A stretch of DNA of 64,000 nt from Natronobeatus ordinarius. GTDB lineage: Archaea; Halobacteriota; Halobacteria; Halobacteriales; Natrialbaceae. Shown here piece by piece: positions 46,487 to 54,333 of this stretch. Where the stretch lies: assembly GCF_024362485.1 (NCBI RefSeq), contig NZ_CP101456.1, positions 124,001-188,000 on the forward strand, read 5' to 3'. A program made the position numbers and the translations under genes. How positions within the stretch are numbered: position 1 is the stretch's first letter; every line of letters begins with the position of its first letter. Under the pieces are notes generated by a model. The model ran no database searches, had not been told where the DNA came from, and was given only the letters and a program-made list of their open reading frames with translations.

Positions 46487-49123
46487 ATGACAGGTGTGGG
46501 GGTGAGCACACCGACGGTGATCATCTCGGCGACGACGGCCGTCGCGGCCGTCTTCACGGCAGTCACGTGGCGATACCGTGACGAGCCCGGCGGTCGAACG
46601 CTTACGCTGTGTCTCCTCGTCCTCGTCGGCTGGGGCGTCAGCTACACGCTCGCACTCACGACGCCCTCGCTCGAGCGGACGGCCGACTGGCTCCGCCTCG
46701 TGTTCGCGACGTTCGCGCTCGTCCCGCCCCTCTGGCTCGGTTTCGTCGTCCAGTACACGGGTCGTGACGAGCTGTTCTCACGAACGGTCGCCGTCGTCCT
46801 GTTCGGACTGCCGATCGTGACCGCCGCGACGGCACTGAGCCCGTGGTTCGACCCCCTCCTGGTCAGCGACCTGTCGATCGAACCGAACGCGACGCTCGCC
46901 GTCTCCGCGGGACCGATACTCGTGGCGACGTTCGTGTTCGCGTACCTCCTGATGTTGTTCGCGACGCTGTTGCTCGTCCAGCTCTTTCTCCGGGCGCGTC
47001 ACCTCTACCGCGGCCAGGCCGTCGCGATCCTCGCGGCCGCGGCCTTCCCGTGGGCGGGCAACGTCTTCTACCTGACCGGCGTCTTCACCGGCCTCGACCT
47101 CACCGGCGCCCTGTTCGTTGTCTCGGCAGCGACGATGACGCTTGCCCTCGCTCGGTTTCGACTCCTCGACCCGATTCCGACCGGCCACCGGACCGTCCTC
47201 GAGCGCCTGACCGACGGCGTCGTCGTCCTCACCGACGACTGGCGAATCGGCGACGCGAACCCGGCCGCGCGGTGGCTGCTCGACGTCGACGACCCGGTCG
47301 GAAACCGAATCGACGCCCTCCTCGAGTCCTGGCCGTTCGACCGCGACGTCGAGACGGTCACCGACTGGCGCGAACTCCCCGTCACGATCGACGGCGAGAC
47401 GCGGTTTCTCGAGGCCCAGGTGCGACCCTTCCGCGATCACCACAACCGAATCGTCGGCCGTGCGGTCACGCTCCGCGACGTTACGGGCCACAAACGGCGC
47501 GAACTGGCCCTCGAACGGTACGAGACGATCTACGAGTCGATCCGCGAACCCGTGTTCGTTCTCGACGCCGACGGCCGGTTTTCGATCGTCAACGACCCCT
47601 TCCTGACGCTGCTCGAGGCCGACGAGACGGCGGTGCTCGGCGAGCGACCGACGGCGGTGTTCGACCTCGAGGCCGACTGGCCCGCCGACGCGCCGGGAAC
47701 CGACGGCGACCGACTCGAGGCCGACGTCGTGACGAGCGCCGCCCCCGTACCGTGTGAGATCGAACTCGCGCCCGTAACCCCCTCGTCGGACGCCGACACC
47801 GAGGGCTGGGTCGGCGTCGTCCGTGACGTCTCTCGCCGAAAGGCCGCCGAGCGCGACCTCGCCGAGACCGCCGAGACGCTCGAGTCGGTGATCACCGCCT
47901 CGCCGGTCGGCGTGATCGCCTGCGACCGCGAGGGAACGATCGAGCTGTGGAACCCGGCCGCCGAGTCGATCCTCGGCTGGCGCACCGACGAGGCGATCGG
48001 CCGACGGCTACCGATCGCCGACGACGCCAACGATCCCCTGCCCGTCGTCGACGCCGCACGGCTCGACCGGCTGTGTGAACTCCCGCTCGAGGACGTCCCC
48101 ACGGCGCGAATCGAACTCGAACTCCGGCGGGCCGACGACGCCCGGATCGACGCGTCGGTCGCGCTTGCACGACGCCACGGTCCGGACGCCACCGTCGACG
48201 GCTACGTCGCCGTCGTCGACGACATCACGGAACGCAAAGCCCGCGAACGGACCCTCCGCCGCCAGAACGAACGCCTCGAAACGTTCGCGAGCGTCCTCAG
48301 TCACGACCTGCGTAACCCGCTCGCGATCGCGACCGGCTTCACCGAGGTGGCCCGGGAAACCGGCGACGTCGACGAACTCGAGCGCGTCGAGGCCGCCCTC
48401 GACCGAATGACCGAAATCGTCGACGACCTCCTCGAACTCGCACGCGCGGGCGAAGAGATCGGCGCGACGAACAGCTGCTCACTCCGCTCGGCCGCCCGCG
48501 ACGCCTGGGAGACCACCGACACCGGCGAGACACGCCTCGAGATCGGAGACAGCCGACTGATCGAAGCCGACCGGACGCGACTCGTGCAGCTGCTCGAGAA
48601 CCTGTTCCGGAACGCGGTGGAGCATAGCTCCACGAGCCCTCGTTCGAACGCTCACGAGGACGCCGTGGAACACAGTTCCACGAGCCCTCGTTCGAACGCT
48701 CACGAGGACGCCGTGGAACACAGTTCCACGAGCCCTGACTCACAGGCTCGTCAGGACGCCGTGGAGCATAGCTCCACGAGCCCTCGTTCGAAGACTCACG
48801 AGGACGCCGTAAAACACGGGAAGACGCAGAAACAGGCGTTCGACGGGAACGAATCGACGACCAGAACCCCCGTGACGGTGACCGTCGAGGCGACCGCCGA
48901 CGGGTTCGCCGTCTCGGACGACGGAGCCGGCATCCCGCCCGACGAGCGCGAGGCAGTGTTCGAACGAGGGTACACGACCGACGCCGACGGCACCGGCCTC
49001 GGACTCGCCATCGTCCGAGAGATCGCCGAGGGCCACGGCTGGACGATCACCCTGACCGAGAGCGACGCCGGCGGCGCACGGTTCGAGTTCGCCGTCTCGG
49101 ACCAGGGGTTTAGGAGCGACTAG
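46487..49123 (+). CDS. Multi-PAS sensor histidine kinase with internal 48-bp tandem repeats
   Basis: This 878-residue membrane kinase has an N-terminal seven-helix 7TM domain (about 1-225). PAS domains follow (about 225-330, 340-455 and 465-585; VFVLDADGRFSIVNDPFLTL, GVIACDREGTIELWNPAAES). The HisKA phospho-acceptor His is near 606 in VLSHDLRNPLAIATGFTEVA. HATPase elements are NLFRNAVEH (N-box, Asn709), DDGAGIP and GTGLGLAIVREIA. Four 16-residue repeats and a partial fifth (unit AVEHSSTSPRSNAHED) interrupt the ATPase domain right after the N-box at about 710-778. No response regulator is adjacent; the signal is unknown. Confidence 0.9.
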   Translation: MTGVGVSTPTVIISATTAVAAVFTAVTWRYRDEPGGRTLTLCLLVLVGWGVSYTLALTTPSLERTADWLRLVFATFALVPPLWLGFVVQYTGRDELFSRTVAVVLFGLPIVTAATALSPWFDPLLVSDLSIEPNATLAVSAGPILVATFVFAYLLMLFATLLLVQLFLRARHLYRGQAVAILAAAAFPWAGNVFYLTGVFTGLDLTGALFVVSAATMTLALARFRLLDPIPTGHRTVLERLTDGVVVLTDDWRIGDANPAARWLLDVDDPVGNRIDALLESWPFDRDVETVTDWRELPVTIDGETRFLEAQVRPFRDHHNRIVGRAVTLRDVTGHKRRELALERYETIYESIREPVFVLDADGRFSIVNDPFLTLLEADETAVLGERPTAVFDLEADWPADAPGTDGDRLEADVVTSAAPVPCEIELAPVTPSSDADTEGWVGVVRDVSRRKAAERDLAETAETLESVITASPVGVIACDREGTIELWNPAAESILGWRTDEAIGRRLPIADDANDPLPVVDAARLDRLCELPLEDVPTARIELELRRADDARIDASVALARRHGPDATVDGYVAVVDDITERKARERTLRRQNERLETFASVLSHDLRNPLAIATGFTEVARETGDVDELERVEAALDRMTEIVDDLLELARAGEEIGATNSCSLRSAARDAWETTDTGETRLEIGDSRLIEADRTRLVQLLENLFRNAVEHSSTSPRSNAHEDAVEHSSTSPRSNAHEDAVEHSSTSPDSQARQDAVEHSSTSPRSKTHEDAVKHGKTQKQAFDGNESTTRTPVTVTVEATADGFAVSDDGAGIPPDEREAVFERGYTTDADGTGLGLAIVREIAEGHGWTITLTESDAGGARFEFAVSDQGFRSD
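48614..48805 (+). repeat. 48-bp tandem repeat in the kinase ATPase domain
   Basis: Units begin at 48614, 48662, 48710 and 48758, with a partial fifth from 48806. Each opens with a perfect hairpin, GTGGAGC-ATA-GCTCCAC or GTGGAAC-ACA-GTTCCAC (unit 1 has GCGGTGG in place of GCCGTGG before it). The three base differences between types are synonymous (Glu, His and Ser codons). CGTTCGAACG, another palindrome, occurs in units 1 and 2. Confidence 0.9.
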
Positions 49124-53926: not shown

Positions 53927-54257
53927 CGATCCAGCTGGGAAGCAATTCATCCCTCTGGACCGAACGATCCGTTTAGATGGATCTCAGAGGAGCCGTTGAA
54001 GAGGAGTTGTCAAGACGCAATCCTCCTGAGGGGTTTGGGGGAACGTGTGAGATACCAAGGGCCGGATTTGAACCACGAGAGTTCGCTTCGCTCACTCTCT
54101 GGGCTCAAATCCTCGATTTGGTGCTTGCCGCTCACGGAGTTGTTCGCGGCAACAAAGCCAAGGGCCGGATTTGAACCGGGGGGACTTCGCTTTGCTCGTC
54201 CCAGGATTCAAATCCTCAGTTGATTCTTACCGCTCGCGGAGTTGCTCGCGGTAGAGA
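53927..54257. repeat. tRNA-Cys tail repeat units
   Basis: CCAAGGGCCGGATTTGAACC occurs at 54055, 54158 and, inside tRNA-Cys, at 54260. That gives units of about 102-103 bases. Each unit contains a T-arm-like inverted repeat (GGATTTGAACC with a TTCAAATCC-type partner) and a hairpin with the arms TTGCCGC/GCGGCAA (54125-54152) or TACCGC/GCGGTA (54228-54253). No gene is seen in this 331-base gap. Confidence 0.65.
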
Positions 54258-54333
54258 AGCCAAGGGCCGGATTTGAACCGGCGGTAGGCGGCTCTGCAGG
54301 CCGCTGCGTTCGGCCGGACTCTGCCACCTTGGC
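54258..54333 (-). tRNA. tRNA-Cys (anticodon GCA)
   Basis: The 76-base tRNA is read from 54333 to 54258. The acceptor GCCAAGG pairs with CCTTGGC, the anticodon loop is CTGCAGA (GCA at 54297-54295), and the T-arm is GGTTCAAATCC. The discriminator is T (U73), a known Cys identity base. TATA-like sequence (TTAAAC on the minus strand, about 54359-54365) suggests its own promoter. Confidence 0.95.

Follow-up and report, generated by a model that had tools for sequence, protein, structure and literature searches.

Rickettsia palindromic elements (RPEs) and their Wolbachia counterparts are short palindromic repeats that sit in frame in many unrelated genes, where the extra peptide is tolerated; what mobilises them is unknown (PMC2229807, PMC10969869). 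Each RPE, of about 105-150 bp, makes a single long stem-loop, and RPEs are found in RNA genes and intergenic DNA as well (PMC2229807). Coding palindromic elements are also known from Methanocaldococcus jannaschii (Suyama, Lathe and Bork 2005, as cited in PMC2229807, PMC2996958). Among haloarchaea, the palindrome-associated transposable elements (PATEs) of Haloquadratum are transposase-free, have two near-terminal palindromes and make no target duplication, and derivatives of IS605 reduced to their termini (terminal-only forms, 52 bp) may be mobilised (PMC3119063). PARCEL repeats consist of 75-bp units encoding amphipathic 25-aa repeats in long tracts; the proteins, from Mollicutes and other microbes, are for the most part membrane proteins (PMC2996958).

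Here we describe a 48-bp unit of haloarchaeal DNA, likely a small mobile element that is palindromic and protein-coding; its movement is inferred from the comparison of species. No account of it turned up in the open-access literature that we searched. By behaviour, its closest analogues are the RPEs and their Wolbachia counterparts, and it meets RPE-like criteria, i.e., stem-loop palindromes, in-frame presence in several unrelated genes and precise insertion relative to uninserted homologues. Unlike the RPEs, it is archaeal, only 48 bp long, built of two hairpins and arranged in tandem arrays, it lies mainly at one homologous spot of one protein superfamily, and both its stems covary strongly. 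It shares with the M. jannaschii elements that archaeal palindromic repeats are fused into protein genes, although in a different lineage. By anatomy and host, the PATEs and the terminal-only IS605 derivatives are closest (PMC3119063): the unit has two hairpins in 48 bp and no coding capacity for an enzyme. PATEs have not been reported to form in-frame coding insertions at one fixed protein motif. PARCEL shares the tandem palindromic coding repeats (PMC2996958), but these are not small inserts in conserved enzymes. By analogy, we file the element among the coding palindromic elements, as a new variant, rather than with the PATEs; its likeness to the RPE, Wolbachia and M. jannaschii elements is one of kind, and descent is not shown.

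Results

The Array in Its Host Kinase

The window, i.e., the whole 64,000-nucleotide stretch of DNA that was analysed, belongs to a haloarchaeal genome of 4.2 Mb. A tandem array at 48612-48817 (period 48, 4.3 copies, score 272) lies in a sensor histidine kinase gene, where it separates the N-box NLFRNAVEH from the strand of the ATP-binding domain that follows. Every unit in the window encodes VEHSSTSPxSxxxxDA, and its 48 bp comprise a first hairpin (HP1; 7-bp stem, 3-nt loop), the linker GAGC, a second hairpin (HP2; 6-bp stem, loop of about 10 nt) and (G)ACGCC. The features of the gene are as follows.

46487-49123, plus strand: host sensor histidine kinase gene, 878 aa, with 7TM, PAS, HisKA and HATPase_c domains
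48606-48625, plus strand: end of the N-box, NAVEH, at the insertion point (AACGCG|GTGGAGCAT); motif intact ahead of the insert
48618-48634, plus strand: unit 1 HP1, GTGGAGC-ATA-GCTCCAC, 7-bp stem
48639-48660, plus strand: unit 1 HP2, CCTCGT-10 nt-ACGAGG, 6-bp stem
48666-48682, plus strand: unit 2 HP1, GTGGAAC-ACA-GTTCCAC
48687-48708, plus strand: unit 2 HP2, CCTCGT-10 nt-ACGAGG
48714-48730, plus strand: unit 3 HP1, GTGGAAC-ACA-GTTCCAC
48735-48756, plus strand: unit 3 HP2, CCTGAC-10 nt-GTCAGG, compensatory and non-synonymous relative to units 1, 2 and 4
48762-48778, plus strand: unit 4 HP1, GTGGAGC-ATA-GCTCCAC
48783-48804, plus strand: unit 4 HP2, CCTCGT-10 nt-ACGAGG
48805-48871, plus strand: degenerate tail (DAVKHGKTQKQAF...), separating the last full unit from the catalytic strand VTVTVEA
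48872-49090, plus strand: remaining ATP-binding domain, with D-DGAGI and GTGLGL boxes intact

The original prediction, made from sequence alone, had placed a 48-bp minisatellite inside the ATP-binding domain and had claimed that the HP1 variants of units 1 and 4 versus units 2 and 3 are silent in the protein (VEHSST) while both arms change jointly. The claim about HP1 held exactly. The prediction had missed the second hairpin of each unit, in which the compensatory change is not silent: in unit 3, both arms and the encoded residues are altered together (D..Q versus R..E in the other units). The array region folds with z = -6.3 as RNA and -6.9 as DNA, and no shuffle folds equally well. A search of the array against Rfam returned no family above the gathering score, two microRNA chance matches lying far below it. 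The array is also open in the antisense direction (134-aa ORF, 48339-48743, minus strand).

The placement inside the ATP-binding domain was likewise correct, and it can be refined. The insert follows an intact N-box whose residues N135, V137, E138 and H139 are invariant in the kinase alignment (A2). In the AlphaFold model, the N-box helix (122-142 of the modelled part) and the next strand (223-228) are both confident, whereas the pLDDT of the insert between them is mostly below 60; the insert is thus predicted to form a disordered loop after the N-box. The Pfam HATPase_c match in the window protein begins only past the insert, and the peptide, being present at the N-box of many annotated haloarchaeal histidine kinases, may disturb domain searches. 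In 60 further genomes of the family, no ortholog of the same architecture reached E<=1e-100, nor, at the threshold used, was there an orthologue with a differing unit number.

Compensatory Changes in Both Stems

A genome scan gave 41 haloarchaeal loci, and an alignment of 66 units (A1) served for counting paired and double-changed cells. In this alignment 95.9% of the stem cells pair, and shifting the partner arm by one column reduces pairing to 33-41%. Double-changed cells number 139 against 55.5 expected in shuffles, none of which reaches the observed value. A rival pairing within the 48-bp unit, GAGCC/GGCTC, showed 0 double changes and no covariation. We also shuffled codons while keeping the protein of each unit: among 69 distinct units, HP1 is perfect in 59 (15 +/- 3 under the synonymous-codon shuffle) and HP2 in 42 (19 +/- 3), with the same picture when one unit per locus is used. 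The claim that selection or copying acts at the nucleic-acid level therefore held, since pairing goes far beyond the synonymous-codon shuffles.

Individual versions of the stems follow the same rule. GTG or GTC occurs with GAA or GAG in all four combinations, and each time the right arm matches, as it does in the versions with GTT and GTA. The residues of HP2 shift in step with the pairing (D..Q, R..E, P..E). Near-orthologous kinases bear wholesale different, yet paired, unit versions; a kinase trio shows the states GTC..GAC, GTG..GAC (a mismatch) and GTG..CAC, with polarity unknown, and in a release-factor-like gene common to two species one copy has lost a pair. Both stems are under strong Watson-Crick compensatory change across haloarchaea.

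The original prediction had left open whether DNA or RNA is involved. The stem cells of 161 distinct units comprise 2002 Watson-Crick pairs, 14 G.T pairs and 42 A.C mismatches; without the third-position pair of CCT/CCC, which is codon-biased, 11 G.T pairs stand against 28 A.C mismatches. RNA pairing would tolerate G.U intermediates, and the rarity of G.T relative to A.C thus favours pairing or copying of DNA, making the DNA level the likely one.

Insertion Sites in Unrelated Genes

Uninserted relatives of four genes are shorter by exactly 16 codons. In CbiE, the empty KVQDAVERE...PVRVVPG compares with the filled KVQDA-VEQSSTSPDSQARQDA-VERA...PVRVIPG (23 versus 39 aa between the flanks), and more filled versions exist in other species. 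Cgi121 has 21 aa between the flanks when empty and 37 aa when filled. The AMP-ligase reads VGED-PERERRDESL when empty and VGED-AVEHGSTTPRSQTHED-EERERRDESL when filled, and the release-factor-like protein GGDDVERTDY versus ARDA-VEHGSTSPRSHAHEDA-VERTDY. These comparisons show precise in-frame insertion of 16 codons into unrelated genes.

The left flank of the insert ends in (G)RAC, and the commonest site is RACGCC|GTNGARC. As GAC ends both the left flank and the element, the precise position of the cut is ambiguous and there is no proof of a target duplication; at the AMP-ligase junction only GAC is necessarily shared, and duplication is neither shown nor excluded. In the genome carrying the window, 13 exact RAYGCNGTNGARCAY sites outside kinases are empty. 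Although this count is small, it indicates that the DNA target alone does not explain the preference for kinases.

Occurrence across Haloarchaea

A covariance model (R1) matches 256 of the 292 genomes of the class Halobacteria at E<=0.01. Outside the haloarchaeal order, the model search of about 295 genomes of the phylum gave nothing convincing and one weak match. The strong set comprises 129 distinct arrays with 187 units in 69 genomes; the list was ranked by model score and a peptide search, and it therefore describes strong copies. Kinase N-boxes hold 118 of these arrays, in 85 clusters at 60% identity, which means that the kinase hosts are mostly not orthologues. The remaining 11 lie in other ORFs. 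According to Pfam, the non-kinase hosts are a tetrapyrrole methylase (CbiE-type, cobalt-precorrin), CGI-121 (Cgi121), a VLRF1-type release factor, an AMP-binding enzyme, an ornithine cyclodeaminase, a response regulator and, in the genome carrying the window, an AI-2E transporter. At least five CbiE genes carry the element. A plasmid-borne MBL hydrolase provides an additional copy with a new compensated HP2, CCTGTC..GACAGG; plasmid matches come from 8 haloarchaeal records, mostly in kinases, and no match was found in the phage records searched with the element.

The element is always in frame and in the sense direction, and its frame is open in every one of the 129 arrays: among the 187 units the used frame contains 0 stops, whereas the most closed of the six frames has a stop in 102. 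The number of units per array ranges from 1 to 5 or more. The genome carrying the window encodes 23 HATPase_c proteins, three of them with clear units. For units at different loci, HP2 identity is 0.835 within a genome versus 0.756 between genomes (1000 label permutations: mean 0.757, maximum 0.786), without control for genome relatedness.

The unit is not private to this gene, a point that the original prediction had missed, and it recurs at at least three other places in the genome as well as across Halobacteria. The label of minisatellite was too small, given that single units are precisely inserted in many unrelated genes. Units elsewhere without pairing would have refuted the prediction; units elsewhere do pair.

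Two loci of one MAG (QS_4_69_225; L051 and L053) are possibly intergenic copies within a larger repeat and have a common left flank, GCTCGCTTCACTCACGAG. This flank may resemble repeats described for haloarchaea.

Related Modules

The same insertion points also hold modules of 42, 45, 51 bp and longer with stems unrelated in sequence, e.g., GGAAGCG-AAAA-CGCTTCC, GCCGGACG..CGTCCGGC, GACGGGC-GAA-GCCCGTC and ATCGGACTGC-TCC-GCAGTCCGAT. The linkers ACGCC and GAGC recur in them, giving the layout ACGCC-HP1-GAGC-HP2-(G)ACGCC. Our layout search looked for this layout itself, and the resulting count is no independent test. Selection on the protein can hardly account for unrelated peptides that share one nucleic-acid layout, and the sister modules may point to a larger superfamily.

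Sister modules (e.g., GSENASEPSVADAPEDA) are mixed into the same arrays at L016, L018, L022, L031, L077, L079, L089, L130 and L150. A weaker double-hairpin relative lies antisense at an ORF 3' end in the genome carrying the window (L064, C1:447154-447208); its hairpins are CGTCGGA..TCCGACG and GCTCGC..GCGAGC, and the ACGCC linker flanks both sides.

Discussion

The mobile coding palindrome is the explanation that we favour. We infer that movement or copying depends on the DNA hairpins, such that pairing copies would persist and non-pairing ones fade. The element opens with the codons V-E-H, and insertion between NA and VEH would rebuild the N-box NAVEH, while the remainder of the insert would loop out and merely lengthen a surface loop. 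Kinases would be the favoured home because the N-box is regenerated and only a loop is extended, and loop tolerance, rather than the DNA target alone, seems to set this preference. Tandem arrays may arise by repeated insertion at the regenerated site or by slippage. No strain pair with and without the insert stands behind the inference of mobility, the mobilising enzyme is unidentified, and gene conversion between paralogous kinases could account for part of the spread.

An IS200-type transposase was considered as mobiliser. TnpA (PF01797) showed no association with the element: 45 of the 62 genomes that have strong copies (E<=1e-14) encode it, as do 200 of all 292; this comparison, counted by hand, concerns gene presence only. 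We did not adopt this candidate, although it is not excluded. Bulge-helix-bulge splicing of the insert, considered in thought only, was set aside as the flanks are direct and not complementary repeats.

A bolder reading, which we could as readily accept as reject, is that of a class-wide double-hairpin family moved by a DNA process whose recognition depends on the layout and linkers (ACGCC-HP-GAGC-HP-GACGCC) alone and not on the stems. The N-box would then be a safe harbour by virtue of the motif-rebuilding codons, and DNA pairing would dictate the protein. Homing introns and inteins likewise use conserved motifs as a harbour.

Among the rival explanations, copying between kinase paralogues survives best, but we consider it unlikely. 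It proposes a local N-box duplication that spread by gene conversion or horizontal exchange and grew by slippage, with the hairpins kept by template-switch (quasi-palindrome) correction and not by selection. In its favour are the concentration of 118 of 129 arrays at kinase N-boxes, the resemblance of units within one genome, the near-orthologues with wholesale different paired units and the trio GTC..GAC, GTG..GAC and GTG..CAC. However, it cannot yield the exact insertions that unrelated genes carry, among them at least five CbiE genes and the plasmid hydrolase, and modules with differing stems but the same linkers are not N-box duplications.

We give little credence to a function at the RNA level, in which the hairpins would act in the kinase mRNA through pausing, stability or regulation. 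The region folds well as RNA (z = -6.3) and the stems covary, but G.U intermediates (14) are rarer than A.C (42), also without the most biased pair (11 versus 28). Moreover, arrays range from 1 unit to 5 or more, most kinases have no units, and the same element occurs in unrelated enzymes.

Equally improbable is a protein-level repeat, i.e., an acidic, disordered linker favoured by adaptive selection on its amino acids. This reading would agree with the constant frame and sense direction and the well-conserved VEH[GS]ST, but not with pairing far above what the protein allows, HP2 residues that follow base pairing (D..Q, R..E, P..E), sister modules encoding unrelated peptides and an insert predicted to be disordered. 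An ordinary minisatellite, confined to one locus and grown by slippage, is ruled out, as units occur singly and in multiples, at many loci and in many genomes.

As a coding palindrome, the element offers a clear natural case of amino-acid sequence within enzymes being dictated by DNA base pairing. It is also a widespread counterpart, in archaea, to the coding palindromes of Rickettsia, and some of its hosts are genetically tractable. With covarying stems, exact empty sites and conserved linkers, the movement of coding palindromes, a long-open question, becomes directly testable.

Elsewhere in the window, at 54058-54283, the 3' part of the adjacent tRNA-Cys (CCAAGGGCCGGATTTGAACC) is repeated in two partial copies with a period of about 100 bp. 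The tRNA-Cys gene itself is at 54258-54333 on the minus strand, and each partial copy is followed by inverted-repeat-rich sequence. These copies may be attachment-site remnants or another small repeat.
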